A DNA stretch of 64,000 bases from Magnetococcales bacterium (lineage in GTDB: Bacteria; Pseudomonadota; Magnetococcia; Magnetococcales; DC0425bin3), in NCBI GenBank assembly GCA_015231175.1, contig JADGBZ010000009.1, positions 1 through 64,000 on the forward strand. Direction: 5' to 3'. The position numbers were made by a program, and so were the translations under genes. Position 1 is the stretch's first letter; the number at the start of each line of letters is the position of its first letter. Below, one piece after another: positions 17,979 to 61,821 of this stretch. A model generated the notes under the pieces. It saw nothing but the letters and a program-made list of their open reading frames with translations. It did not search any database and was not told the origin of the DNA.

Positions 17979-18191
17979 ATGAAAGAAAATGGCATTACCA
18001 GGGCAGAACTTGCCGATCGTCTTGGGAAGAGTGAATCCTTTGTGTCCCAGGTGCTGAGCGGCCATCGCAACATGACCCTGGAAACCTTGGCTGATATCGC
18101 CTACACCCTGGACCTGAAAGTGAAAGTTGATTTCGGACGTGACGATTGGGTGGGCACTGAACCCTTGAAACACCCCGGTCAAACACTTTGA
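17979..18191 (+). CDS. XRE-family helix-turn-helix protein, possibly 5'-disrupted
   Basis: 70 residues from the first available ATG, with a helix-turn-helix: ITRAELADRLGKSESFVSQVL then MTLETLADIAYTLDLKVKV. This is the antitoxin-type or phage-type XRE class. The same frame is open upstream to a TGA at 17901-17903 and reads SFHRDAFILDTTENICVRM, sequence that normally belongs to this family, but contains no start codon. An ATG two bases out of phase at 17900 (MKEGRK then TAA) suggests a frameshift in the A-rich run at 17912-17924. The product may therefore be shortened. No toxin partner is evident. Confidence 0.55.
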   Translation: MKENGITRAELADRLGKSESFVSQVLSGHRNMTLETLADIAYTLDLKVKVDFGRDDWVGTEPLKHPGQTL

Positions 18192-18507
18192 CATGAAAGC
18201 CTTTGTCAGGGCTTCGACCCGAACCCTGTGAGAAAAGCCAGGATATGAAAGCCCTTGTCAGAGCTTCGCCCCGAACCCTGTGAGAAAAGCCAGGATATGA
18301 AAGCCTTTGTCAGGGCTTCGCCCCGAACCCCACCAGGGCGCTGCCCTGGACAAAGCCAGGGAGCCAGCACCCTGGACCCCGATGCGTGGCCCAGTACTCG
18401 AAAAATCAGGATATGAAAGCCTTTGTCAGGGCTTCGCCCCGAACCCCGCCAGGGCGCTGCCCTGGACAAAGCCAGGGAGCCAGCACCCTGGACCCCGATG
18501 CGTTATC
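18192..18507 (+). repeat. Cluster of four repeat copies, two truncated and two full
   Basis: Two 50-55 base partial copies (about 18194-18245 and 18246-18300), each ending in GAACCCTGTGAGAAAAGCCAGG, precede two full cores (about 18299-18397 and 18414-18507). The repeated GAAAGCCTTTGTCAGGG starts show head-to-tail accumulation. Terminal GTAAC motifs are not preserved. The cluster fills the space between convergent genes. Confidence 0.8.
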
Positions 18508-20461: not shown

Positions 20462-20549
20462 AGGTCCAGGAGGAAGGGCTGCGCCCTTCCTCCTGGTGGG
20501 GTTCGGGGCGAAGCCCCGACAAAGGCTTTCATATCCTGGCTTTTCTTAA
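20462..20549 (-). repeat. Old truncated repeat copy
   Basis: A reverse-oriented partial copy: GGAAGGGCTGCGCCCTTCC palindrome, then CTGGTGGGGTTCGGGGCGAAGCC and CCGACAAAGGCTTTCATATCC. It has lost its left terminus and directly abuts the better-preserved element at 20558. Confidence 0.75.
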
Positions 20550-20557
20550 AAGAATAC

Positions 20558-20728
20558 GTAACTATTCACCACCCGCCAACGAATCGGGGTTCAGGGGGCT
20601 GGCTCCCTGGCTTAGTCCAGGGCAGAGCCCTGGCTTTGTCCAGGGCAGCGCCCTGGTGGGGTTCGGGGCGAAGCCCTGACAAAGGCTTTCACATCCTGGC
20701 TTTTCCTGCAAGGGGGGCAAATAGTTAC
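20558..20728 (-). mobile_element. MITE-like element with GTAAC inverted ends (171 bp)
   Basis: The left end is GTAACTATTCACCAC and the right end is GCAAATAGTTAC, giving a perfect nine-bp terminal inverted repeat. The flanking octamers AAGAATAC (20550-20557) and AAAAATAC (20729-20736) match at seven of eight positions, consistent with a target duplication. The core contains the GC-rich repeat plus an extra CCAGGGCAGAGCCCTGG palindrome. No coding capacity. GTAA ends with 8-bp duplications are typical of IS66-family elements. Confidence 0.75.
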
Positions 20729-20809
20729 AAAAATACTGAAACAGTTACGGTTTCTCTTGCAAGGACGCCGAATGGTCAAACCATTTTTTTCCGGTGGCGC
20801 CGGGCTGTT

Positions 20810-25765: not shown

Positions 25766-28219
25766 ATGTCCGATCATCGCAAAGCTCGGCAAAGACATGT
25801 TCAGCACGCATCCACTTCGTCGCCAACACCCGTCCGACAATCGGCCTTCGACCTCTATGCCGAAGGCAAGCTGGCCGCAGCCTTGGCAACGGCGGAGATC
25901 GCCCTGCGTGCGCACAGACAGGATGTCGACCTGCTGAACCTCGCCGCCTATTGCCATGGGCAGTTGGGCAACCCGCAGCAGGCCTTGGACCTTTGGCAAC
26001 AGGCCCTCCGGATCAAGCCAGATTATGCCGATGCCTATTTCAATATTGGCAATTTTTTGAAACAACTCGGCCTTGTCAAAGAAGCCGAAGCAGCCCTCCG
26101 CCAGGCCCTGCACTTCAAGCCCAACCATGCGGACTTCCACAACAATCTGGGCAACCTGCTGAAAGAACAGGGGCGTCTCGACGAGGCCGAGACCATCTAC
26201 CGGCAGGCCCTGCACCACCAACCAGACCACGCCGATCTGCATGCCAACCTGGGGGTACTCCTCAAAAAACAGGCTCGCTTCGAGGCGTCCGAGCTGGCCC
26301 TGCGACAGGCCCTGCGCATCCGCCCGGATCACGCCAACGCCCTCTACAACCTGGGAAATCTTTTGCAGGAACAAAACCGCCTTGCCGAGTCGGCAGAGGC
26401 CTACCAACAGGCGCTGCACCACCACCCAAACCATGTGGATGCGCTGAACAATCTGGGCAGCGTTTTGCACAAACAGCACAATTTTGCCGCAGCCGAGACC
26501 ACCTACCGGCAGGCCTTGCAGATCAGGCCGGAAGATGCAGATATCTGCAACAACCTCGCCAACCTCCTGAAAGAGATGCAGGCCTGGGAGGCCGCCGAGG
26601 CCCTCTACCGGCAGGCCCTGCGCAGCAGACCCAACCAGGCCGATCTGCACTCCAACCTGGGTGTCCTCCTGAAAAAACAGGCCCGCTACGCCGAGGCGGA
26701 ACACGCCTTCCGGCAAGCCCTGGCCATCAGGCCGGATTTCGCCCATATCCACTACAATCTGGGCACGCTCCTGCAAGAGACCCAACGCTTTGCCGAAGCC
26801 GAGTCCGCCTATCGGCAAACCCTCCTGCACATGCCCGATCACGCCGATGCCCACAACAATCTGGGCAATATTCTGAAAATTTTCAAACGCTACGATGAGG
26901 CCGAGGCGGCCTACCGACAGGCCATGCTCTGCCGGAACAACTTTGCCGAAGCCCTCAGCAATCTGGGCTCCCTCCTCCAGGATATGCAACGTTTCGACGA
27001 GGCCGAAGCCGCCTATCGGCAGGCCCTGCACCTGCAACCCGACAACTCCGGCGCTCACAACAATCTGGGCGTTCTCCTCCTGGATGTGGGGCAACCCGAT
27101 GCAGCCATCCTCTCCTTCCGCCAGGCCATTGCCATACAGCCGAATCTTGTAGCGGCCCACCGTCACCTCGCCTTCACCAAACGGTTCAAACAAAGCGACC
27201 CGGACCTGTTGGCCATCGAAAAACTGTTGTCACAAGAGGCCCTCTCCGATGGAGAGATGGCCCAGTTGCACTATGCGATCGCCAAAGCCAAAGCGGATCT
27301 CGGCACCTTCGATGAGGCCTTCTCGCACTACCTGCAAGGCGCCCGTTTGAAACGCAGGGAGTTCGATTATCATATCACGGAAATTCAAAGTTATTTCAAT
27401 GCCATCACCCTCCGTTGCACGGCCAGGTGGATCGAAACGCATGCCAGGAAAGAGCGATCCGGTCCCATTCCGGTGTTCATCGTCGGCATGCCCAGGTCCG
27501 GCACCACCCTGGTCGAGCAGATTCTTGCCAGTCACCCCCTGGTCCACGCCTCGGGTGAACTGGAATTTTTTCGGAAGATGATCGATGAACACTACCTCCG
27601 CCCCGAACAAACCTGGCCCGACTGGCTGGAGAGTCTCTCCACGGAAGAGTTGGCGCAACTGGGCCAAAAATACCTGCAAGCCTTGACGCAGCCGGCACAA
27701 GGCAAAAAGTGGATCACCGACAAAATGCCAAGCAACTTTCAATATCTTGGCTTGATAGTGGCTGCCCTGCCCCAGGCACGCATCCTTCATGTCCAGCGGG
27801 ATGCCGCCGACACCTGCCTCTCCTGTTTTACCAACTATTTTACCCATGGACAGGCCTTCTCTTATGACCTGACCGAACTGGGCATGCACTATCGCGCCTA
27901 TGCCGGCCTGATGGACCATTGGCGCAGCGCCTTGCCACCCAACCGGATGTGGGAGATCCGGTACGAACAGTTGATCGCGAATCCAGAACCGATGATCCGC
28001 GACCTGCTGGCTTTCTGTGGATTGACGTGGCACCCGGCCTGCCGTGAATTTTATCACACCAAAAGGCCGATCCAGACCGCCAGCGCCTTGCAGGTGCGCC
28101 AACCTCTGTATCAAACCTCCGTGCAGCGCTGGCGCGTCTATCAGCAGCAACTGGCACCTTTGTTTGCGGCCCTGGGACCATGGGCCCCGCCGGAGTGGTC
28201 TCTGGCGCGCAAAGGGTAA
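25766..28219 (+). CDS. TPR protein with C-terminal sulfotransferase domain
   Basis: 817 residues. About 14 consecutive TPRs of the NNLGNLLKEQGRLDEAE type span residues 25-470. The last 270 residues form a sulfotransferase domain: PVFIVGMPRSGTTLVEQILA is the PAPS 5'-phosphosulfate loop, and VQRDAADTCLSCFTNYFTHG is the 3'-phosphate region. It would transfer sulfate from PAPS to an unknown acceptor, with the TPRs perhaps holding a protein substrate. GGAGAG eight bases upstream supports the ATG. It follows the RimK-like gene by 46 bases and precedes the pyruvate kinase by 20. Confidence 0.88.
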   Translation: MSDHRKARQRHVQHASTSSPTPVRQSAFDLYAEGKLAAALATAEIALRAHRQDVDLLNLAAYCHGQLGNPQQALDLWQQALRIKPDYADAYFNIGNFLKQLGLVKEAEAALRQALHFKPNHADFHNNLGNLLKEQGRLDEAETIYRQALHHQPDHADLHANLGVLLKKQARFEASELALRQALRIRPDHANALYNLGNLLQEQNRLAESAEAYQQALHHHPNHVDALNNLGSVLHKQHNFAAAETTYRQALQIRPEDADICNNLANLLKEMQAWEAAEALYRQALRSRPNQADLHSNLGVLLKKQARYAEAEHAFRQALAIRPDFAHIHYNLGTLLQETQRFAEAESAYRQTLLHMPDHADAHNNLGNILKIFKRYDEAEAAYRQAMLCRNNFAEALSNLGSLLQDMQRFDEAEAAYRQALHLQPDNSGAHNNLGVLLLDVGQPDAAILSFRQAIAIQPNLVAAHRHLAFTKRFKQSDPDLLAIEKLLSQEALSDGEMAQLHYAIAKAKADLGTFDEAFSHYLQGARLKRREFDYHITEIQSYFNAITLRCTARWIETHARKERSGPIPVFIVGMPRSGTTLVEQILASHPLVHASGELEFFRKMIDEHYLRPEQTWPDWLESLSTEELAQLGQKYLQALTQPAQGKKWITDKMPSNFQYLGLIVAALPQARILHVQRDAADTCLSCFTNYFTHGQAFSYDLTELGMHYRAYAGLMDHWRSALPPNRMWEIRYEQLIANPEPMIRDLLAFCGLTWHPACREFYHTKRPIQTASALQVRQPLYQTSVQRWRVYQQQLAPLFAALGPWAPPEWSLARKG

Positions 28220-31647: not shown

Positions 31648-31773
31648 GTGCCTATTCCGCACTCTTTCAAGAAAAGCTTGGAAATGAAAGCCTTTGTCAG
31701 GGCTTCGCCCCGAACCCCACCAGGGCGCTGCCCTGGACTAAGCCAGGGAGCCAGCCCCCTGGACCCCGATTCA
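31648..31773 (+). repeat. Intergenic repeat copy inside the PqqD/ATP-grasp cluster
   Basis: A full GC-rich core in plus orientation. The left end GTGCCTATTCCGCACTCTTTCAAG is a decayed form of the GTAACTATTCACCAC terminus; the right terminus is lost after CCCCGATTC. It separates the asparagine-synthase-like gene from the TPR urea-transporter-like gene. Confidence 0.8.
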
Positions 31774-31810
31774 TGGCTTGCCTGCACATCAAATCAACAC
31801 GGTTGAGCCA

Positions 31811-33310: not shown

Positions 33311-33349
33311 GACATAAACTCCAATCACAACGATTCAAAACCATTCCAA

Positions 33350-33462
33350 AAAAAACTTGGATATGAAAGCCTTTGTCAGGGCTTCGCCCCGAACCCCACC
33401 AGGACTCCGTCCTCGACCTGCCAGGGAGCCAGTTCCCTGGACCCCCATGCGTGGCCGGGTGC
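33350..33462 (+). repeat. Intergenic repeat copy inside the PqqD/ATP-grasp cluster
   Basis: Plus-oriented full core beginning ATATGAAAGCCTTTGTCAGGG and ending CCCCCATGCG. It fills the gap between the M23/urea-transporter gene and the asparagine-synthase-like gene. Terminal GTAAC motifs are decayed. Confidence 0.8.
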
Positions 33463-37034: not shown

Positions 37035-37063
37035 CTTGCGCTCCCTGGTCGCTTCGGTGTCCG

Positions 37064-37192
37064 GTAACGAATCGGGGTCCAGGGGGCTGGCTCCCTGGCA
37101 AGACCAGGACGGCGTCCTGGTGGGGTTCGGGGCAAAGCCCCGACAAAAGCTTTCATGTCCAAGCCTTTCTTGAAAAGGTGCTGAATGGTGAC
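37064..37192 (-). repeat. Intergenic repeat copy inside the PqqD/ATP-grasp cluster
   Basis: A 129-base reverse copy beginning GTAACGAATCGGGG and ending TGAATGGTGAC. The GTAAC joins the core directly, indicating a small deletion of the left terminal region. It lies between the ATP-grasp gene and the decarboxylase gene. Confidence 0.8.
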
Positions 37193-37232
37193 CCGAATCG
37201 TCACTTGCAACGAGGCGTATCCCTGAAAACTT

Positions 37233-38910: not shown

Positions 38911-40947
38911 CTACCGATGCGGCACGATGAACGGCATCACATTGGTTGGTGGTGGCGGCGCCGCAAAATGCGGGAGCGTCGGCGGAACGACAGGTTGGAC
39001 CAACGGCATCACCCTCGTGGTCGGGGGGGGTTGCACGGGAGTCGTAGCCGGGTTTGTCACCGTGGACACGGGCGGCAATCCGCCTGTTCCCGTCGGCGCC
39101 ACTGGTGCAGTCATGACTGTCGGCGAGGTTGTCCCACTCGTGGTTGGCGCCTGCGTGCCACCACTGGTTGCCGGTTGCGTGCCACCACTGGTTGCCGGTT
39201 GCGTGCCACCACTGGTTGCCGGTTGCGTGCCACCACTGGTTATTGGCTGCGTGCCACCACTGGTTATTGGCTGCGTACTGCCACTGGTCGCCGGTTGCGT
39301 GCTACCACTGGTTATTGGCTGCGTACTGCCACTGGTCGCCGGTTGCGTACCAACACTGGTTATTGGCTGCGTGCCAACACCGATCGGTGCCTGCACCCCG
39401 CTACCCGTTGGCACCTGCGCACCACTACCGATTGGCGCCACCTGCACCCCGCCACCCGTCGGCGCCTGCGTGCTACCACCGACCGGCGTCGATATCCCAC
39501 CACCCAAGGTTGGCGTCTGTTGCGTCCCACCCAAGAACGGAGATATCACGCCACCTCCACCTGGAGCCGTCACGCCACCAAAGGTCGGTCCCACAGAACC
39601 TGCCCCTGGTTGCGTCCCGCCTGCTGCCGGACCTTGGCCACCCGCTGTCGGCGCCTGGCCGCCTGCCGGACCTTGGCCACCCGCTGTCGGCGCCTGGCCA
39701 CCTGCCGGACCTTGGCCACCTGCCGGACTTTGGCCACCCGCTGTCGGCACTTGGCCGCCCGCCAGACCCTGGCCACCCGGCTGCAACTGAGGCGGTAACT
39801 GCTTGATCACATCGTTGTGAATCTGGTTTTGCATCTGGCCCTGAGCCGGTGGTGGTGGCGCACTTGTCGCGGGAGGCGGAGCTGTCCCCCGAACACCGAT
39901 GGAGAACCCTCCACCCAAAGGAAGGCCGAAGGGTATCCCGCCCGCGCCCATGGGTGACAGATTCGGTCCAGCCCCTCCCATAGGTCCGGAAGGTCCGATC
40001 GGACCGCCCGGCCCACCCATGGGTCCGGTTGGTCCACCCGGCAGACCCGCCGCTCCGGCAGGTCCGACAGGTCCACCTGCACCGACGGCTCCCCCCTGAC
40101 CACCCGGTCCACCCGGTCCACCCGGTCCACCCTGGCCACCCGGTCCACCCTGGCCACCCTGATCACCGGGTCCAGCCCGGTCACCTGGGCCAGCCGGCCC
40201 ACCCTGGTCACCCGGGCCGCCTTCTCTCTGCCCACCTCTCTCTCCAGCACCACCCGACCTGGCACTTTCACTCGATGATGCAGATTTGCCGTCCGCACCT
40301 CGCTGTCCTGCCGGTTGCAAAACCGCTGCCTGGCTGGTGAACTGCGGTCTTTGGGTAAAACCTGTCACCATGGCGTTCTGCCCCGGTCGCAACTGCAAAG
40401 CACCGGCGCCATTCGCCAGGGTCACGATCCCCTCCTGCACGGAAACGTGCAACCTCTGTCCAACATTGACAGAAAAGTTGGTGCCTCGTACCCCCAAAAC
40501 AGCAAACCTGGTACGCAACTGATATTTCTTCTCTCCTTCCTTGCCTATGTGCCCGGTCAACGCACGAAACTGACCCGTGATCAGCTTGAGATATGACCGG
40601 TTGCCGGGTGCATCCTGCCCCGCATAGTGGTAATCCTCGATGGCAAAGGTGGAGTTGGCGTAGACGGAGATCAGACCGCCGTCGGAAAACCGCAACTGGG
40701 CCTGTCCATCCTTGGCCTCAATGATATCCCCGGAGAAAAGTTCACTGCCCTTTTGCAAGGGTTGGGATCGGTGATCGCTCTTGCGAATGGCCAGGATCTC
40801 ACCTTGTACAGCCACAACCCTGGCGGAAACACCCCCCCCATCCGCCCCCCAGGAAGGATTTGACTGGAGCAAAACCAGGATCGGAACCAACAGAAAACCG
40901 ATCATGGTGGACAAAAAACGCATGGAAACCGAACGAATCTGGGTCAT
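38911..40947 (-). CDS. FecR-domain protein with collagen-like and Thr/Gln/Pro repeats
   Basis: 678 residues from ATG 40947, overlapping the upstream gene as ATGA. A signal peptide or anchor occupies about 10-35 (MRFLSTMIGFLLVPILVLLQ). The FecR domain covers about 45-200: VVAVQGEILAIRKSD, LFSGDIIEAKDGQAQLRFSD, and FAVLGVRGTNFSVNV. Then come a Gly-X-Y stretch of about 90 residues, a GGQAPTAGGQGPA region, and roughly ten copies of an eight-residue SGGTQPAT/ITSGSTQP unit. The C-terminus is Pro/Val-rich. This is an exported, probably surface-displayed protein with a long extended stalk; the beta-barrel partner upstream may place it in the outer membrane. Confidence 0.8.
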   Translation of the reverse strand: MTQIRSVSMRFLSTMIGFLLVPILVLLQSNPSWGADGGGVSARVVAVQGEILAIRKSDHRSQPLQKGSELFSGDIIEAKDGQAQLRFSDGGLISVYANSTFAIEDYHYAGQDAPGNRSYLKLITGQFRALTGHIGKEGEKKYQLRTRFAVLGVRGTNFSVNVGQRLHVSVQEGIVTLANGAGALQLRPGQNAMVTGFTQRPQFTSQAAVLQPAGQRGADGKSASSSESARSGGAGERGGQREGGPGDQGGPAGPGDRAGPGDQGGQGGPGGQGGPGGPGGPGGQGGAVGAGGPVGPAGAAGLPGGPTGPMGGPGGPIGPSGPMGGAGPNLSPMGAGGIPFGLPLGGGFSIGVRGTAPPPATSAPPPPAQGQMQNQIHNDVIKQLPPQLQPGGQGLAGGQVPTAGGQSPAGGQGPAGGQAPTAGGQGPAGGQAPTAGGQGPAAGGTQPGAGSVGPTFGGVTAPGGGGVISPFLGGTQQTPTLGGGISTPVGGSTQAPTGGGVQVAPIGSGAQVPTGSGVQAPIGVGTQPITSVGTQPATSGSTQPITSGSTQPATSGSTQPITSGGTQPITSGGTQPATSGGTQPATSGGTQPATSGGTQAPTTSGTTSPTVMTAPVAPTGTGGLPPVSTVTNPATTPVQPPPTTRVMPLVQPVVPPTLPHFAAPPPPTNVMPFIVPHR
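39153..39376. repeat. 24-bp coding tandem repeat in the FecR gene
   Basis: About nine consecutive 24-base units related to GTGCCACCACTGGTTGCCGG on the plus strand, each encoding eight residues on the minus strand. Units alternate between two types (ending in GTTGCCGGTTGC or GTTATTGGCTGC) and include ACT/ACC variants, suggesting duplication of a two-unit block. Copy number is likely to vary between strains. Confidence 0.85.
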
Positions 40948-45575: not shown

Positions 45576-45722
45576 GTAACTACTCACCACCCGGCCACGA
45601 ATCGGGGTCCAGGGGGCTGGCTCCCTGGCAGGTCCAGGACAGAGTCCTGGTGGGGTTCGGGGCGAAGCCCTGACAAAGGCTTTTATGTCCAAGCTTTTCT
45701 TGCAAGAGTGGTGAATAGTTAC
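45576..45722 (-). mobile_element. MITE-like element with 15-bp inverted ends and 8-bp target duplication
   Basis: The best-preserved copy of the repeat family, 147 bp. The left end is GTAACTACTCACCAC and the right end GTGGTGAATAGTTAC, a 15-bp terminal inverted repeat with one mismatch. It is flanked on both sides by the identical octamer CGTCTTTT (45568-45575 and 45723-45730), a clear target-site duplication. The core holds the GC-rich palindromes and no gene. GTAA ends and 8-bp duplications are the hallmark of IS66-family transposition, so an IS66 transposase elsewhere probably moved it. It lies just upstream of cysQ. Confidence 0.88.
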
Positions 45723-45756
45723 CGTCTTTTTGGCAACTTGATCGGAAATGTGCCCC

Positions 45757-48883: not shown

Positions 48884-48928
48884 AAAGGCCTTGACATGAA
48901 AGGCCTTGACATGAAAGGCCTTGACATG
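48884..48928 (+). repeat. Three tandem 15-bp units AAAGGCCTTGACATG
   Basis: Three perfect copies occupy 48884-48898, 48899-48913 and 48914-48928; a fourth, diverging unit starts the neighbouring intergenic repeat. Each unit contains TTGACA, the consensus -35 hexamer. The unit derives from the outer part of the repeat family (GGACATGAAAGCC). Confidence 0.9.
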
Positions 48929-49037
48929 AAAGGCCTTTGTCAGGGCTTCGCCCCGAACCCCACCAGGGCGCTGCCCTGGACCCGCCAGGGAGCCAGCCCC
49001 CTGGACCCCGATTCGTTGCCGGGCGCTCAATGGTTAC
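48929..49037 (+). repeat. Intergenic repeat copy
   Basis: Plus-oriented full core from AAAGGCCTTTGTCAGGG to CCCCGATTCG, with a decayed right terminus CTCAATGGTTAC ending at 49037. It sits between the convergent bluB and receiver-phosphatase genes. Confidence 0.8.
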
Positions 49038-49097: not shown

Positions 49098-50231
49098 TCA
49101 CACCCGCGCCTCGATGATGGTGATGTCATCCTCGTGGCTTGAGGAGCCAACATGGTCATTAAGCCGGACGAGCAGGTCATGCAGGGTGTGCCGACCCTGG
49201 GCCACACCGACCAGAAAGCTTTCCAGATTGTCCATGCCGAACACGTCGTCTTGGCTGTTTCTTGCCTCGATGACGCCATCGGAGAAAACATACAGGCAAT
49301 CCTCCCCGGCCAGCGGGATGCCGACCGCGCCGGAAGCGATATCCAGTTGCCTGGAGATGCCCAGCGGCGGCAAAAGAGAGGGAAAATGGGACAGGACGGA
49401 ACCTTGCCGAACCATGATGACGTCCGGCAGGCCGGCATTCCAGAGGGTGGCTTGGGTACGTTCGGGGGATATTTCCAGCAGGGTGACGGCAAAAAAAATG
49501 CCCGTTGGCAACCTCAGACAAAGTTGATCGTTGATCTCGTTGAGAATTTCTGCTCCAGAAACGTTGTTCCTGGCCAGTTTGTGAAAAATGTAGGTCACCA
49601 AAGGAGAACCAATGGCTGCGGGCAAGCCGTGGCCAGTGAAGTCTCCCAGCAAGACCAATTGGCGTGCATCGGGAGTGAAGGTGGCGAGCAGCATGTCCCC
49701 GGCGGTCATGTCCACAGGGCAGGTCAGGTGTTGCAGATGGCGCGTATCAAAGGTGTCCGCATGCCGCATTTTAAGGACGATCCCCTCGATGATCTCCTTC
49801 TCCTGTTGCAACAACCGGTTTTGTTCGTCCAGTTTCAGTTTGGCGGCCCGCAGGGCGAGGTGGGTTTTGACCCTGGCCTGCACGATGGGCGTACTGAAAG
49901 GCTTGGTGATGTAATCCACGGCGCCCAGAGTCAGTCCGGTGATTTCATCATCCACCTCCGCTTTGGCCGTGACGAAAATAACCGGAATATCCCGGGTGAC
50001 CGGATCGTTCTGCAACCGTCGGCACACCTCGTAACCATCCATTTCCGGCATCATGATATCCAACAGGATCAAATCCGGCATGGGTTGGATCTTGACGACC
50101 TTCAAGGCAATCTGGCCTTTGATGGCAGGGCGAACCTGGTAGTTGGCGCTCAAAGCCTCCCTGAGCACATCGATGTTTTCCGGCGTGTCATCAACCACCA
50201 GGATGACAGGCTCGTGATTGGGGTCACGCAT
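49098..50231 (-). CDS. Response regulator with SpoIIE/PP2C-type phosphatase output
   Basis: 377 residues. The receiver domain (about 8-125) has [13 protein letters not shown], phosphoacceptor Asp in [13 protein letters not shown] and Lys in YITKPFS. A short coiled coil ([20 protein letters not shown]) leads to a PP2C/SpoIIE domain: [44 protein letters not shown] and [10 protein letters not shown] with metal-binding Asp residues. Such RsbU-like proteins dephosphorylate STAS proteins when activated. The start overlaps the hybrid kinase stop by eight bases, so the kinase is the likely donor. The STAS protein at 42546 is a candidate substrate. Confidence 0.9.
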
Positions 50232-53200
50232 CGTGGGCCGTCAGGTCGATGTGCAGGGCTTGGGCGCAGGCCCGCAAGGTTTTTGCAGCATCTTCAAAGT
50301 CATATTGGCCAATTTGTTTCTCCAACCGGGTCGTCCAGGTCACCATCTCCCCAGATAACGCCGATGCGCCCAGGTTGGCCAGGGTCTCTCCAACGCTGGC
50401 ATCATACATTTCCAGTTGAATGGCCATTTTCCTCAGCAAGGTATCACGAATGTGGGTGGATGCCACGCTCTCTTCCCCTGTGGGTTGCGAATGCTCCCGG
50501 GGCCGCACGGCGGAGAAGGCGTGTCGCAAGGCAGCGCATACCTGTTGCAGTTCATGGCCTGCGTCGCGCAGCAAACCGTCAACCTGTTCGGGAGTACACG
50601 TTGTTTTGAGGGCGGCTTCCAAGGCCCCGGCCTGGGCCGCCAGGGCGTTGGCGCCGATGGTGGCCGAAACCCCTTTCAAGGTGTGTGCCAGACGGATGGC
50701 CGTTGCCGCATCGTTGGCCGAGAGCGCTGCCTGTATGGCGACGGGACTCCCCCCCTGGTTGGTGCAAAACTTGGTCAACAGTTTCAAATACCCCTGGACA
50801 TTCCCCCCCATGCGTTGCAGGCCCGCCCCGGTATCCACACCGGGTACCGTGGGCAAAACGCATGCGCTCTCTGCCGGATGGTCCGAATGGTCAGGATGCT
50901 CCAGATGGTCCGAATGGTCAGGATGGTCCGCATGGGTGGGCAGGGCAGGTTGAGGCTTGGGTTGGGAGGATCGGGGTTTGATCCATTGGGCCAGGGTTGC
51001 GTACATCTCATCCGGATCCACCGGTTTGGCAATGTGTCCCTGCATGCCCGCTTCCAAACACCGCTCCCGATCACCGGACATGGCGTTGGCCGTCATGGCA
51101 AGGATGGGCAGGTTGGCAAAACGGGCATCCCGACGAATCTCCCGGGTGGCCGTCAGACCGTCCATGACCGGCATTTGTACGTCCATCAGGACAATGTCCA
51201 GGGATTCCTTGCAAACCAGCTCGACGGCTTTCTGGCCATTTTCAGCCAACAGCACGGTGGCCTGGGCTTGTTCCAACAACTCTTGCGCCACTTGCTGGTT
51301 GATTTCATTGTCCTCGACCAGAAGGATTCTGGTCCCGGCCAGCGAGGCTTTGGCGTAACCAGGGGCGTTGTGATGGGACGCCGTGTACCGACCGTGGGTA
51401 TCGGTCTGGCCGAAGGCCTCCATGATGGTTTCAAACAACAGGCTCGGATGGATGGGTTTGACGAGGAAACCGTTCACCTGAGCCTCTTGGACAGCTCTCC
51501 TGACGACATGTTCTTCCCCATAGGCAGAGGCCATGATGACCACAGGAAATCGGCTCAAGGTCAATTCGTGACGCATTTTGGCGACGGCGGTGATGCCATC
51601 CATCCCGGGCATCATGAAATCGGTGACGATCAGATCGAAGGGCTCTCCCGTCAAGTCGGCTTCCTGAACGGCGCCAATGGCTTCCTGGGCATTCCGGGCT
51701 TTGGTGACTTTGAACGTGAAGGATGTCAAATAATCCGCCATGACGTTGCGGGCACTCTCGTTGTCATCCACAGCCAGCACCTTCAGACCGCGCAGATCAA
51801 GGGTCGGGAGCAGGGATTTTTTTGTGGCCTGTCGGGAGATGCCCAATCGAACGTCGAAGATGAAACGGGATCCCTGACCGTATACGCTTTCCACGCGAAT
51901 TTTTCCATCCATCCTGTCGATCAAAAGTTTGGCGATGATCAAACCCAGACCGGTTCCGCCATATTTGCGGGTGGTGGATGTATCCGCCTGGGTAAAGGCC
52001 TGGAACAGTCTGGCCTGTTGCTCCGGCGTCATGCCGATGCCCGTATCCCGCACAGTAAACCGCAGGCGGACAAAGTCGTCGCTTTTCTCGCCAAGCTCTA
52101 CAATGACCGCGACCTCGCCTGTCTCCGTAAACTTGATGGCATTGTTGGCCAGGTTGATGAGCACCTGACTGAGCCGGAGGGGGTCACCGACCAGGCTCGG
52201 GGGGATGTCAGCCGCCGTTTCCAGGAGAAATTCCAGATGTTTTTCCTGTGCCTTCAGGGAAATCATGGTGGCCATGTTTCCCAGCACTTCCTCCAGAGTG
52301 AAGTCAACGGACTCCATATCCAGTTTACCCGCCTCGATTTTGGAAAAATCCAGAATGTCGTTGATGATGCGAAGCAGGGAAGTGGCGGCGTGATACACCT
52401 TGCGGATGTAATCCTTCTGGCGAACCGTCAGTTGGGTTTGCAGGCAGAGATGGCTGAGGCCGATGATGGCGTTCATGGGGGTACGAATTTCGTGGCTCAT
52501 GTTGGCCAAAAATTCGGACTTGCCTTGATTGGCGATGTCGGCAGCCTGCCGGGCCTCGACCAGTTCGCGTGTTCGTTCCGCCACCCGTTGTTCCAACTCC
52601 TCCTGATGGGTGCGCAAGGCCCTGGTTTGTTGGTCAAAGGTTTGGGCGAGCATCTCCAGCTCATCGCCCGTACCGATCGGCGAGCAGGCCTCTTTGCCGT
52701 AACTGCGCACCCTTTGGCACAGAGTGAGAATGGGATGGGCCAGATTGTTGCCCATACGCACAGCGACCAGGCCAGCCAGAAAGACAAACAGCAACCCCAG
52801 GGATCCGAAACGAAGCAGGGCCCGGTGGATGGAGGCTTGATGGATGGACACGGGAACGCTTAATGCCAACGTCACCCCCATTTTTTCCAGCCAGGGCATC
52901 TCGCTGCCATCGGCCTCGACCTGGGCGGAAATCATGTGCTCCGGGTCTGCATTCTGGAGAGTGAAGAGTGTCTGCCGTGCGTCCGCTATCCGGTAGCTGA
53001 CATTTTTTTCTCTCTGCAAAAGGCGTTGCACGATGCGGTACAAGTCAAATTCCACCACCACCGCGCCCTGGATGGTCTTGTAATATTCGATGGGAACGAC
53101 CGCCATCAGGGTTTTGCCGGCGGTGATGAACAGGCTGGCGCGACCCATGGCCAAGGCCTGCCGGAGTTGCGGGAAACTGTTGTAATCGGGAGGTTCCCGG

Positions 53201-53577
53201 GCCTGGACAAAAACCGCCCGGCCATCAAAATCCACCAGAGCAAAGGAGAGAAGATCCCGGTTTTGGGCAAAATCTTCTGCCAATCTTGGCAAATGGGTCT
53301 GGCGGTTTTCGGCGTCGATCATGCCGTTGATGATCAGGTGGCTGCTGGTCAGCGCCTGGGTGGTTTCCATGAGATAAGCAACACGCTCCTCCAGGCGTTG
53401 CAGCTCCAAAAAGGCAATTCTGTGCAGGGTGTCGCGGCTCTCCTCCTCCAGCTGGATCTTGAACAACCCACCCACCGACAGTGCAGAGAGCCCCACAACC
53501 AGGACAAAAAGCAACCCGATTTGCCAGACGAGGCGCTTTCTGAGGCTTTTTCCCGAACCTGGCGGGGATGTGGTCAT
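50224..53577 (-). CDS. Hybrid sensor histidine kinase with two receiver domains and Hpt
   Basis: 1117 residues. Membrane segment near 15-38, a periplasmic sensor region to about 255, a second membrane segment, HAMP and a coiled coil. The HisKA box has [18 protein letters not shown] with the phospho-His; the ATPase domain has [13 protein letters not shown] and [14 protein letters not shown]. Receiver 1 has [15 protein letters not shown], receiver 2 [15 protein letters not shown], and the Hpt domain [17 protein letters not shown] His/Asp-rich linker ([20 protein letters not shown]) lies between receiver 2 and Hpt and could bind metal. Upstream it overlaps the binding-protein gene as ATGA; downstream it overlaps the phosphatase gene. 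A multistep phosphorelay is expected. Confidence 0.93.
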
Positions 53578-55730
53578 GGGGGGGCTCCGGAAAGCTGGGG
53601 TACGATGTGGCCGGAGGCGTCGAAGCGGGCCATGAAATAGTCGTTCCGGTCGAGAGCATCGTGCCTGTCGGAGGTGAATGGTGGATGATAGTCCTTGATC
53701 AACCCTTTGTAGTCGGCAATGTGTTCCAGGGCATCGCGTATGGCTTGACGGTTTGTGGTGCCAGCCTGGTGTATGGCGCGGGCCAGGAGGTGAACCAGAT
53801 CGTAGGCCTGGGCGAAACCGGACAAGGGGAGAGTCATATCCTGAAACCCCGCGCCAAACAGATCCCCATACGACTTCTGTAGCGCTCGAAGGCGGGCCTC
53901 CTGGGCACGGGCCGGGGAAAAGGTTTGCAGAAAGGTCAGCTCCACCTTGTCGAGCGCATGCCGGGTTTTGGCAAAAAAATCGCCCCCGATGATGCCCCAG
54001 TGGGAGACGATGGGCAGGGTGGGTTTATGGATCGCCACAGCTTGCAACCACGACACACTCTCATCGGCATTGACCACCAAAACAACCACATCGGCGCCAC
54101 TGTCCCGCATGGCCTGCATATGGGTGGTGAAATCATGTTCACCCCGGTTGATCCATGCCACCAGAACCGGGGTGATGTTGCGTTGTTTGCAATGGTTTTG
54201 CAAATGGGGAAGCATGTTGCGACCCCAGGCGGTCTCCTCCAAAACCAAAGCCACACGCGACCCTTTGGCCAGAGCGGCGTCAACCAGGAACGGACCGGCC
54301 AGACGATCATTGGCGGAGATGCGGAAGGAAAATGGGGAAAGACGGTCGGTATGTTCCACCACGCCAGCCGCAGCGGCCCTGGCCACGAGGAAGGGAATCT
54401 TGAGCTCATCGGCCAGCTCCGATTGGGCCAGAACGACCGGGCTGTTCGTGCCGCCCAGAATGGCCACCACGGCATCCTGTTTGGCCAGAAAGCGGAAATG
54501 ATCCACACCTCGGGTGGGGATGGCCATGTCGTCAAAAGCCAGCAAGGCCAAAGGTCGCCCCAAAACGCCACCAGCCTGGTTGATCTCGTGCATGGCCAGC
54601 CTGGCGCCCTGTTTGATGGCCAGACCGGCACGGGCCCGTGTCTGGGAAAGCGCCGTATCCAATCCGACGACGATCTCGTTTCCCTTGCCCTGACGTGACT
54701 GCCAGTTGAAAAGCAACTCCTCGGTTTTGGAAATGATGTCACTGCCGATCACCTCCTCGAATTGCAGGGAAAGATGGCGCAATTTTCGGGTAAAGACGGC
54801 GCGTTCCTGTTCGGTCAGGCGGTTGATCCTGACCCCGGCTTGCCGGATTTGCTGGAGGAACTGCTCTTCCCTTCGGGCGGTCTCTTCGCGTTGAAAGGGT
54901 GTGATGGTTTTGGCTGTCTCCAACAACAAGGTTTGCTGTACATGCGGCAGGCGCGCAAGAAGGGTCTCACTGATGGCCAGGACATAGGCAAGATAGGCAT
55001 GATCACTCAAAGTCAGGTGAGATTGCACCTGATGAATGCCCATGGCCGCGATGGCAGACAGGGGGTTTTCCTGGGCCTCCACCACCCCATCGGCCAGGGC
55101 CTGGCGGATTTCGCGAAACTCGATGGGAATGGGTTTGGCGCCCAGATCGGCGTATTGATCCATGATAAGGCGGCTTTGCATGACCCGCACCTTGAGATCA
55201 TGAAAATCTTCCGGGGTATGAATGGATCGATTGGCAGTGAATTGCTTGAAACCGTTGCCCCAGAAGGTGGCGCCCACAAGACCGACGGCATGCAGTTTGG
55301 ACAACAGCAATTGACCAGGTTCGCCATCCAACATGCGGTAGAGCATGTCCGGCGATGAAAAATAGAACGGCAGGTCCACATATTGGAGGGCAGGTAGCAG
55401 GATACTCATCTTGGCCGTGGGAATGAGGACGATATCCAACTCGCCATCGCGGGCCATTTCGGCCATTTTCAGATCGTTGCCCAGCTGGCCTTCAGGAAAA
55501 ACATCCACACGCAACGCGCCATGGGTTTGCGACCCGATGGTCTGGGCAAAGCGTTCCGCAGCCACTCCCATGGCACTGTCTTGCGGCATGTTATGCCCAA
55601 ACCGCAGGGCCGGTCGGGCTGTGTGGGAACTGTCGCCCGGTGGGGATGAGGAGGGATGGAAGGCCGGCCACCACGCCCAACCGATCAGCGCAAGAATGAC
55701 AGACAGAGCAACGACGTGGGCATATCTCAT
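53574..55730 (-). CDS. Fused DctP-type and ABC-type (LivJ-like) substrate-binding protein
   Basis: 718 residues from ATG 55730; an upstream GTG at 55760 is less likely. An N-terminal hydrophobic segment ([17 protein letters not shown]) exports or anchors it. Residues about 38-330 are a TRAP-type DctP domain ([59 protein letters not shown]). Residues about 355-690 are a type I periplasmic binding domain ([40 protein letters not shown]). No transporter partner is present. Coupled by ATGA to the hybrid kinase, it probably serves as the periplasmic sensor for that kinase, possibly detecting two different ligands. Confidence 0.85.
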
Positions 55731-55775
55731 GGGTGGGGACAGCTCGGCGCCTGACAACACATGGTTACTTTACTT

Positions 55776-56834
55776 TCATTCAAGCTGTTGTGCATGAGTA
55801 TGAGAGTATTGGTGTCGTTCGCTGGCAAAACGGATGGCGCGCGCCAGCTTTTTGGCGTTCAGTTCGCTTTTGCCCAAAAAGTCTTGTGCACCCTCATGGA
55901 CAGCCTGGGAACCCAGGGAACTCTCCTCCAGGCCTGTCAACACCAGAATGGGAACGTCGGAGAAGGAGTCGTGAAACCTCAGGAAAGTATCCAACCCCTG
56001 ACTATCGGGAAGATTGAGGTCCAACAGGATGAGATCATAATTGTCCCGGCGCAAGGAGTAGAAGGCACTGGCCAGATCGACCACACAGTTGACGGAGAGT
56101 CCTGCCGGAAGCATGAACTCTTCCGGATTGCGGCGGGCGTTGCTCAACCAAGCGCGGACCAGGTGCGAAAAGTCGACATCATCATCCACCATGAGAATTT
56201 GGAACTGGCCCATCATGTCCATGTCCTCCTTGTGAATCTCCGCATAACCGGTGAGCATGGCCTTGATCTGGGCGGTGACCGGCCTGCCGGTAAAGGACAT
56301 GTAGACATGGAGAATCAGAAAGCTGAGAAGAAGGTAAGCCATGGCTTCATGGATGCCGGCGATGACCCGCAAGGATAAAAACCCCAACCCTGTCTGTTCC
56401 CACTGGAAATAGTACATGTACAACAGGCCTGTTCCCCATATCGTTGGGGTCAGCAGGACATTCAGCAGAAGATAGGTAAAACGTTGCAGGGGGTTGTGTT
56501 TCAACCGGGGCGTTGTTCTGAACGGATGACGATGTTGCGTGGGGTTGAATATGCCTTTGGAGTAATAATGCACCATGGCACGCATCTTATGCCTGGTCGG
56601 AATGTATTGCTGCCACTCTCCGGTGACCAGAAACCAGAAAATGGTAAAAATCCACAACCAGATGAGGGTACGGGCAAAGATGATGTGCCAATGAGCGGCG
56701 AGGGCAAAATCCATGACCACGATCTGGCTGGAGGCGTTCAGGCCAGTTACCATCAGGCCGATCATCAGAATGGCCTGAGACCAGTGCCAGAACCGTTCAT
56801 AGCGCGTGTAGAGCAACGCCTTGCGCGTGGTCAA
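55776..56834 (-). CDS. Membrane b-type cytochrome fused to a response-regulator receiver domain
   Basis: 352 residues from TTG 56834, six bases after GGAGA. The first 205 residues are a four-helix cytochrome b of the b561/hydrogenase type, with heme-ligand candidates His in RFWHWSQAILMIGLM, HWHIIFARTLIWLW and GIHEAMAYLLLSFLILHVYM. Residues about 213-345 are a receiver: FQILMVDDDVDFSHLV, phosphoacceptor Asp in LILLDLNLPDSQG, and Lys in FLGKSELN. There is no output domain after it. The gene starts four bases after the octaheme cytochrome stop, so it should pass electrons between the quinone pool and that cytochrome while being able to accept a phosphoryl group. Confidence 0.88.
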   Translation of the reverse strand: MTTRKALLYTRYERFWHWSQAILMIGLMVTGLNASSQIVVMDFALAAHWHIIFARTLIWLWIFTIFWFLVTGEWQQYIPTRHKMRAMVHYYSKGIFNPTQHRHPFRTTPRLKHNPLQRFTYLLLNVLLTPTIWGTGLLYMYYFQWEQTGLGFLSLRVIAGIHEAMAYLLLSFLILHVYMSFTGRPVTAQIKAMLTGYAEIHKEDMDMMGQFQILMVDDDVDFSHLVRAWLSNARRNPEEFMLPAGLSVNCVVDLASAFYSLRRDNYDLILLDLNLPDSQGLDTFLRFHDSFSDVPILVLTGLEESSLGSQAVHEGAQDFLGKSELNAKKLARAIRFASERHQYSHTHAQQLE

Positions 56835-56837
56835 GTC

Positions 56838-58478
56838 TTATCTCCGTTGCAGGCCGGGAAGGAGAATACGCAGCGCGCCATGAATGACCACGCTGACCAG
56901 AGTCAACAGAACCAACAGACCCCCGAGGCGACGAATCCAGGGGGAAGAGTCCCGACCCAGGAGGTAGAAGTCGGTCAAATCCTTCAAGCGGCTGTTGGGA
57001 TCATGGCAATCCCGGCATTGCAGAGCGGACTCCTTGGGAGCCACCATGTGGGTCAGGGGAAAATACATGGTGGCATCCACGAAACCCACCTGCCCGCTGA
57101 AAGGTGGAGCGCCCGGACTCTTCATGCCGGCGGCAACGGAACGGGACCAGTCGAAAGAACGGTAGAAGGCCTCCTTGTCCTCCACGGAGTCGACAACGGC
57201 ATGGTTGATGACCATGTTTTTATTGACCGGATCGTAGGGCATTTTGGATTTCATGACTTTGAAAGGCCAAATGCGGGACTTGCCATCTCCATGGCGTCCG
57301 GAAATGCGATTGAGCGGAACCGGAGAGGTGTCGTCGATTTTATCATGCAGCAGGGTGTAGTCCACCTGGCCGTCGAACCATGCGTACTGAGGAACAAGGT
57401 TCTCCCCCCAGGTGATGACGCCGTGCTGCCGGGAGTAGGTCGCGGGGTGGGTTGCGGCGACTTCGGCAGGTTCGGGGGGCAGTTTGTTGTCACGGGCGGG
57501 GCGACCGGCCTGACTCCAATCCCAGGAGGTTTTGGTTTTGACCCCGCCACGCGCATAGAGGGGAATATGGCAGGTCTGACACGCGATCCGATAGGTGTGG
57601 TCGTTCAGCAGGGGTTGCGACCGGTGCGACGTTGCGCCATGGCAGGATTCACAGGAGGAGAGCGTGTTGTCAACGTGGCCGGGCCGTTTGATCCCCCGGG
57701 TGTCGTGGGCTTTCATGGCGTAACGACTGCCGGCGATTTGGTGCTCCTGGGTTGTGTGGCACACGCTACAGTTGAAGTTCAAACCATCTTTGGCCATGTG
57801 AACATCGACGTTGCGACCGGGAGTCACCAGAGAGGAGTCCAGATCACCATGTTTGGCGCCATCACTGGCGCCACCATGGAAGTGACAGACACCACAATTG
57901 TGCCGGGTGGAGCGTGCAACGCTGTGGGCCATGGCCGGCAAGTCAGGGATGAGTATGGGCTCCCCCTTGGACATCAGGACAGCGTATCCATAGGGGTATT
58001 TGCGGTAGTTGCCGGTTTGCTCGTGACAGACCAGGCAATCCACCTGCTCCTCGGAGGATCCAACCACCTCTGGATCCTTCCATCCATACCCGACGTGACA
58101 GCGGGCGCAGAGCTTCCAATTGGATTGAACCGAACCGCAAAAAGCGTTGGTCACATGCTGCTTGCCGTAGGTGCGCCGGGCATCCTTGGGGGCATATTGC
58201 CAGGTCCAGTGGGTTGTCTTCATGACCTGGCTGGCCGCCTCGGTGTGGCAGTGCAGACAGGCCCGCGTGACCTCCTGTCCTGACGCAAAGGGGCCGTCAA
58301 GTTCCTTGAGTTTACTGTGCCTGGCGGTGGAGAAGGCCGCTTTATAGGGATCCTGCACCACCCCGGCTGCTGCCGTCGCACACCAGAATGACAGGAAGCA
58401 CAAAACGACTCCCAAAAGGGTTCTCAGCCTGGGAGAGAGTGACATGCCTGCCCGCAAGCCAAAATTTTTTGTCACCAT
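56838..58478 (-). CDS. Octaheme c-type cytochrome, tetrathionate-reductase-like (OTR family)
   Basis: 546 residues from ATG 58478 (MVTKNFGLRAGMSLSP); an export signal covers LLGVVLCFLSFWCATAAAG. Eight CxxCH heme sites are present: CLHCH, CARCH, CLVCH, CGVCH, CSVCH, CESCH, CQTCH and CRDCH. The C-terminus carries a membrane anchor (GGLLVLLTLVSVVIHGALRI). Eight hemes, the length and the spacing match octaheme tetrathionate reductase and its relatives, which can reduce tetrathionate, nitrite or hydroxylamine in vitro. The true substrate cannot be told from sequence. It heads the minus-strand operon down to 49098. Confidence 0.88.
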   Translation of the reverse strand: MVTKNFGLRAGMSLSPRLRTLLGVVLCFLSFWCATAAAGVVQDPYKAAFSTARHSKLKELDGPFASGQEVTRACLHCHTEAASQVMKTTHWTWQYAPKDARRTYGKQHVTNAFCGSVQSNWKLCARCHVGYGWKDPEVVGSSEEQVDCLVCHEQTGNYRKYPYGYAVLMSKGEPILIPDLPAMAHSVARSTRHNCGVCHFHGGASDGAKHGDLDSSLVTPGRNVDVHMAKDGLNFNCSVCHTTQEHQIAGSRYAMKAHDTRGIKRPGHVDNTLSSCESCHGATSHRSQPLLNDHTYRIACQTCHIPLYARGGVKTKTSWDWSQAGRPARDNKLPPEPAEVAATHPATYSRQHGVITWGENLVPQYAWFDGQVDYTLLHDKIDDTSPVPLNRISGRHGDGKSRIWPFKVMKSKMPYDPVNKNMVINHAVVDSVEDKEAFYRSFDWSRSVAAGMKSPGAPPFSGQVGFVDATMYFPLTHMVAPKESALQCRDCHDPNSRLKDLTDFYLLGRDSSPWIRRLGGLLVLLTLVSVVIHGALRILLPGLQRR

Positions 58479-59479: not shown

Positions 59480-59698
59480 GCTTTTCCGCGAAAAATTTTG
59501 TCAGGGAAAAATTTTGTCAGGGTTGCGCTGCGAAGAAAGCCGGGACACAGGTCGCCTTCAACACCCTTGCAAGAAAAGCCTGGACATGAAAGCCTTTGTC
59601 AGGGCTTCGCCCCGAGCCCCACCAGGGCTCTGCCCTGAACCCGCCAGGGAGCCAGCCCCCTGGACCCCAATTCGTTGGCGGGTGGTGAATAGTTACCA
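59480..59698 (+). repeat. Intergenic repeat copy with intact right terminus plus a partial one
   Basis: A partial duplicate at about 59480-59535 (AAAAATTTTGTCAGGG twice) precedes a full plus-oriented core from about 59565 that ends GGTGGTGAATAGTTAC at 59698. The left end (GTCGCCTTCAACACCC) is diverged. The intact right end abuts the stop of the thymidylate-synthase-like gene. Confidence 0.8.
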
Positions 59699-61548: not shown

Positions 61549-61654
61549 AAACGATCATGGCTTTGGGTATGCCCACTTCAAATGCGATTGTCCTGGGGAC
61601 AAGCCACCAAGGTGGCAGCGGTGTCAGAGGATATGATAGCCTGAGAAACCGTTC

Positions 61655-61792
61655 AGCGATCGGTAACGCATCGGGGTCCAGGGGGCTGGCTCCCTGGCAG
61701 GGCCTAAGACAGCGTCCTGGTGGGGTTCGGGACGAAGCCCTGACAAAGGCTTTCATATCCAGGCTTTTTTTGCAAGGGTGCCGGATGGTTAC
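61655..61792 (-). repeat. Intergenic repeat copy
   Basis: Reverse-oriented full core: GTAACGCATCGGGGTCCAGG through TGACAAAGGCTTTCATATCC, ending CCGGATGGTTAC at 61792. The termini are diverged. It sits 30 bases upstream of the ACP gene and may carry or influence its promoter. Confidence 0.8.
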
Positions 61793-61821
61793 AAGCTGGA
61801 TTCAACAAAAAGGAGTCGGTC

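Follow-up and report, generated by a model that had tools for sequence, protein, structure and literature searches.

In Magnetococcia, the membrane cytochrome b that accompanies the octaheme tetrathionate-reductase-family cytochrome c (OTR) bears a receiver domain in the same polypeptide, and this fusion (cytb-REC) is conserved and has a single origin. Each half belongs to a known family, and it is the combination that is new. The fusion gene was recognized in a 64,000-nt stretch of DNA from a Magnetococcales bacterium (GCA_015231175.1, contig JADGBZ010000009.1, positions 1-64,000), hereafter referred to in its entirety as the window, whose relevant features are collected in Table 1. A first-pass annotation had described the gene product as a four-helix b-type cytochrome with histidine ligands joined to a complete receiver in one chain, and both Pfam and AlphaFold2 (AF2) confirm this description. 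The same annotation knew of no comparable system, and no published description of a cytochrome b or b561 fused to a receiver was found in the open-access literature, outside which most subscription papers lie.

Table 1. Positions of the fusion gene, its neighbours and repeat elements in the window
Feature	Positions	Strand	Basis
Cytochrome b-receiver (cytb-REC) fusion gene, 352 aa	55776..56834	-	ORF; PF01292 and PF00072; AF2 model mce6140ee9fd6, pLDDT 84
Cytochrome b domain, residues 1-200, four TM helices	56235..56834	-	Pfam, alignment, AF2 model, loop charges
Receiver domain, residues 211-334	55833..56204	-	PF00072; AF2 and VIA-align
Phosphoacceptor Asp272 codon	56019..56021	-	Alignment; Asp kept in 18/19 fused loci
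GGAG, Shine-Dalgarno-like site for the TTG start of cytb-REC	56842..56845	-	Sequence
AAGGAGG directly 5' of in-frame ATG codons at the cytb-REC linker	56228..56234	-	Sequence
OTR, octaheme tetrathionate-reductase-family cytochrome c, C-terminal TM helix	56838..58511	-	TIGR04315; PDB 1sp3; 8 CXXCH
DctP + Peripla_BP_6 double periplasmic binding protein	53574..55760	-	Pfam; 15 nt downstream of cytb-REC
TorS/BarA-like hybrid histidine kinase: HisKA, HATPase, 2 REC, Hpt	50224..53577	-	Domain matches; adjacency not conserved
Receiver-SpoIIE phosphatase-type response regulator	49098..50231	-	Pfam
Interspersed repeat sites	310-524, 18171-18503, 20491-20729, 31655-31782, 33334-33461	both orientations	Sequence
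Interspersed repeat sites, continued	37046-37193, 45576-45723, 48898-49025, 59557-59684, 61645-61793	both orientations	Sequence
24-nt tandem array and degenerate 18/21-nt repeat array	39083-39442 and 39619-39779		Sequence
102-nt (34-aa) repeats, unit length as in TPR proteins	26081-27082		Sequence

The interspersed repeat listed in the table is about 100-140 nt long (GAAAGCCTTTGTCAGGGCTTCGCCCCGAACCCCACCAGG...) and occurs at about ten sites in the 64 kb, its copies being 60-99% alike.

Architecture of the fusion gene and its cytochrome b half

Translation of cytb-REC starts at a TTG codon (56832-56834), with GGAG located 7 nt upstream. The only Pfam matches of the chain are PF01292 (Ni_hydr_CYTB; residues 9-196, E 1.7e-22, 80.5 bits against a gathering cut-off of 30.1) and PF00072 (residues 213-334, E 1.9e-14, 54.2 bits against a cut-off of 30.2); with neither a DNA-binding nor a known enzymatic output domain among them, the protein is not a classical response regulator. 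The AF2 model, with a mean pLDDT of 84.4, contains four long helices (11-34, 43-71, 115-140, and 155-181) and a complete (beta-alpha)5 receiver, whose comparison with known receivers (residues 208-352, VIA-align) gave Z values of about 17-20. The match lists returned by Foldseek and VIA-align consist entirely of receivers and therefore do not test the cytochrome part, for which HyaC (E 0.0036) was the sole match in a PDB profile search.

Alignment of 40 homologues revealed invariant His17, His50, His162, and His176, all of haem-ligand type, together with an invariant H113. As judged from sequence and model, the PF01292 half is a di-haem cytochrome b in which two His pairs are the predicted haem ligands. 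Because positive charges fall on the TM2-TM3 loop (8 K/R, the remaining two loops having none), an N-in/C-in topology is predicted, which would place the receiver in the cytoplasm. At the linker, the AAGGAGG motif and the in-frame ATG codons that follow it suggest that a free receiver might also be made in this organism. This arrangement is present in the window only and absent from the other fusions compared, and an internal start was thus rejected as a family-wide feature.

The receiver half

All five catalytic residues (D217, D218, D272, T300, and K322) are found in the window receiver, which on alignment carries a canonical phosphorylation site; loss of the phosphoacceptor, considered earlier as a possible objection, is not seen, Asp272 being retained. 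Across the family, the only fused locus without this Asp is L123, which has Asn in its place. The full five-residue set is present in nine of the 18 complete fused receivers (the window, L118, L018, L045, L041, L039, L119, L120, and L121), while at least one catalytic residue is missing from the remaining nine (L124, L132, L046, L125, L043, L021, L040, L122, and L123). The Thr is replaced by Asn, His, or Ala in L124, L132, L046, L125, L043, L021, and L040, the Lys by Arg in L132, and an acidic residue is missing in L122, L123, and L021. All nine fall under the definition of pseudo-receivers given in PMC12632262. Since half of the complete receivers depart from the catalytic set, phosphorylation of fused receivers is not universally required.

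The fused receiver is nevertheless under purifying selection, including in paralogues with degenerate sites. The dN/dS values of linker plus receiver range from 0.03 to 0.18 in the fused pairs with computable values, which are rough estimates because several pairs approach saturation at synonymous sites, and those of the receiver in degenerate lineages (L132/L124, L132/L046, and L125/L021) lie between 0.08 and 0.11. In the receiver tree, 17 of the 18 fused receivers group together with modest support (87/95), the divergent L122 being unplaced. Their nearest relatives outside the fusion family are Magnetococcia cNMP-binding-REC proteins and a REC-plus-unknown group, and no close paralogue of the fused receiver was detected in its own genome. 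The cNMP-binding-REC proteins (L028, L029, L030, L031, L032, L033, and L037) have the REC near the C-terminus and lack an output domain; in L034-L036, from family f6 of Magnetococcia, about 150 aa that Pfam does not recognize (as checked in L034) come after the REC.

The octaheme reductase partner

The OTR gene, which probably starts at the ATG at 58478, is located directly upstream of cytb-REC, with 3 bp between them. Its product scores 554.6 bits against TIGR04315 (cut-off 375) and matches PDB 1sp3 with an E of 8e-100; it contains eight CXXCH motifs, and its DGAKHGDLD and NAFC motifs align with the catalytic-haem Lys, Asp, and Cys of 1sp3. These three active-site residues are kept in every fused member having an OTR. 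Counting on the 1sp3 alignment places the catalytic-type Lys in the KHGD motif, whose K we take to be Lys153 of the 1sp3 paper. The OTR catalytic-type Lys is described in PMC4484225, and the function of the family has been described as cryptic (PMC11024163). The C-terminal TM helix of OTR contains an invariant His, mostly as HG/HA-xxR, in every OTR sequence compared, the Arg at the fourth position after it being mostly conserved. This His is a possible additional haem ligand or quinone-site residue.

Wherever the upstream region was inspected, the cytochrome b subfamily directly follows OTR, with the exception of L046 in genome G028, where no OTR adjoins cytb-REC and one is instead located separately on contig C156, an arrangement that possibly reflects reciprocal loss between duplicated loci. 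According to Pfam, representatives of three other genera (L119 in G003, L120 in G016, and L121 in G005, whose chain ends inside OTR at the contig end) encode OTR, its anchor helix, the cytochrome b, and the receiver as a single ORF, with Pro/Ala-rich linkers that differ from one another; the AF2 model of an OTR-cytb-REC chain has a pLDDT of 69, corresponding to modest confidence for domain packing. Unfused OTR-cytochrome b pairs without a receiver are found in many bacteria as well as in other Magnetococcia. The earlier label of b561-type cytochrome is thus right as to a b-type membrane cytochrome, but the protein is not a free-standing b561; it is a conserved OTR partner, and in the three other genera it is part of the OTR chain.

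Distribution and origin

Of 48 Magnetococcia genomes, 15 contain the fusion, at a total of 19 loci distributed over families f1, f3, f6, f13, and f14. The fused cytochromes form one clade (99/94), corresponding to a single change on the cytochrome tree, and under midpoint rooting their nearest neighbours are unfused cytochromes of Magnetococcia family f11. The length of the linker between cytochrome b and receiver is near-constant among the fusions. Outside Magnetococcia, no fusion was observed among the matches in a sample of 398 Pseudomonadota genomes, which cover essentially the cytochrome alone, or among the non-Magnetococcales loci in the best 80 of 298 relatives from a GTDB scan of 84,980 species genomes, in which again only the cytochrome was covered. 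A two-domain relative would be expected to rank higher in the latter scan. Both searches covered relatives of this cytochrome family, so that an independently evolved fusion involving a different family of cytochromes could have escaped them.

The neighbouring kinase module

Since the genes for the double periplasmic binding protein (DctP-PBP), the hybrid kinase, and the receiver-SpoIIE protein lie close to cytb-REC in the window, with 15 nt separating the first of them from the fusion gene, co-transcription of all four is possible. The first-pass annotation had looked to the Hpt domain of this kinase as the partner of the receiver, a proposal that did not withstand comparison. In the sister species G002, contig C5 carries the DctP-PBP/kinase module and contig C140 cytb-REC, and in G016 the two are likewise separated (C90 and C115, respectively); no kinase is conserved beside cytb-REC in the fused loci compared, and the genome itself has 64 HisKA matches. 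Because the linkage is not conserved, the neighbouring kinase was rejected as the evolutionary partner of cytb-REC, and DctP-PBP and kinase probably constitute a separate module. Relatives of DctP-PBP occur in 28 of the 48 Magnetococcia genomes, most of them spanning both binding modules, and the sensor region of the kinase adjoins DctP-PBP at all five loci checked. Together, the two proteins resemble a sensor of the TorT/TorS type equipped with two binding modules.

Proposed role and alternative explanations

To judge from the sequences, the receiver is most likely a cytoplasmic docking or switch domain on the OTR respiratory complex, phosphorylated in its canonical members. A more specific proposal, to which sequence and model lead us to give an even chance, is that cytb-REC would serve as the membrane subunit on the quinol/quinone side of the OTR complex and that signalling would set electron flow post-translationally. 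The two b haems would carry electrons between OTR and the quinone pool, and, in trans, a histidine kinase or an Hpt would phosphorylate Asp272 or dock on the receiver, altering the complex in its activity, its assembly, or its binding of partners; in degenerate receivers, the same surface would be a phosphorylation-independent docking site. That a phosphorelay gates the respiratory chain directly, receiver phosphorylation switching electron flow to the periplasmic octaheme reductase inside a single complex and without gene regulation, is put forward more tentatively. In terms of direction, output control of the enzyme is favoured over sensing by the enzyme or tethering.

If the signal ran the other way, the redox or quinol state of the cytochrome would alter the receiver, which would inhibit, activate, or drain phosphate from a kinase, and the complex would be a sensor. 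Such a flow has precedents in an ammonium transporter-histidine kinase (PMC5764959), the SLC5-STAC kinases (PMC9100948), and FixT (PMC7078487), and the fused receiver, like its cNMP-binding-REC relatives, has no output domain after it; however, no partner kinase was found, in the membrane precedents a kinase, not a receiver, is the fused module, and FixT stands alone as a single-domain protein, so that we consider this direction rather unlikely. Lower still is the probability we assign to a receiver that simply localizes or assembles the OTR complex independently of phosphorylation, any phosphorylation being incidental. The degenerate half of the complete receivers, which depart from the catalytic set yet keep low receiver dN/dS values, would fit such a tether, as would the atypical receiver of FrzS, used for polar localization (PMC1974792), but a pure tether would be expected to lose the Asp more often, whereas only one of the 19 fused loci has done so, and all five residues persist in the window lineage.

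It is improbable that the fusion is neutral, an adjacent receiver gene having lost its boundary with no coupling between the halves. The internal start in the window, with its AAGGAGG and in-frame ATGs, could still yield a free receiver and speaks for this explanation, whereas its absence from other members, the single origin kept across five families, the near-constant linker length, and, in three genera, the incorporation of OTR into the chain as well speak against it. A sequencing or assembly frameshift joining two genes, against which the first-pass annotation had cautioned, has almost no likelihood and was rejected: no point in its support was found, and the same fusion recurs in different assemblies, at 19 loci of 15 genomes, with no internal stops and dN/dS well below 1 under purifying selection.

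Relation to known systems and significance

OTR (SO4144, PDB 1sp3) and its cytochrome b partners resemble the window locus in the upstream position of the OTR gene, the eight CXXCH motifs, and the catalytic-type Lys, and the window cytochrome b is about 45-50% identical to unfused OTR partners from other Pseudomonadota and other Magnetococcia. In contrast to the known pairs, the Magnetococcia cytochrome b bears a receiver predicted to be cytoplasmic, and in three genera it also shares its chain with OTR. To our knowledge, the PF01292 cytochromes HyaC and PhsC/FdnI are bare subunits without a receiver. HyaC (4gd3) and PhsC/FdnI share with cytb-REC the four-helix di-haem arrangement, the His pattern, and the N-in/C-in topology. 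Membrane proteins joined to two-component modules are also known from the Kuenenia ammonium-transporter histidine kinase (PMC5764959) and the SLC5-STAC kinases (PMC9100948), but these carry a kinase, whereas cytb-REC carries a receiver and its membrane part is an electron carrier. FixT (PMC7078487) likewise combines a receiver and a redox cofactor in one polypeptide; unlike cytb-REC, it holds an Fe-S cofactor inside the receiver and acts as a single-domain inhibitor of the kinase FixL. Response regulators with enzymatic output, such as the receiver-SpoIIE protein of the window, also unite receiver and effector in one chain, but their soluble effector follows the receiver, whereas in cytb-REC a membrane respiratory subunit precedes it. 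The cNMP-binding-REC proteins, with about 40-44% receiver identity to the fused family, have the REC as a C-terminal module as well, joined in their case to a soluble cyclic-nucleotide-binding domain at the N-terminus.

The best-known roles of two-component systems lie in the control of gene expression and second messengers. With the permanent presence of a receiver on the membrane haem protein of OTR, a respiratory enzyme may be open to direct docking or control by signalling proteins. With a receiver long fixed to a respiratory membrane subunit, direct and fast phosphorylation control (or reading) of anaerobic electron flow becomes testable, and cytb-REC offers a physiological handle on the cryptic role of OTR in Magnetococcia.
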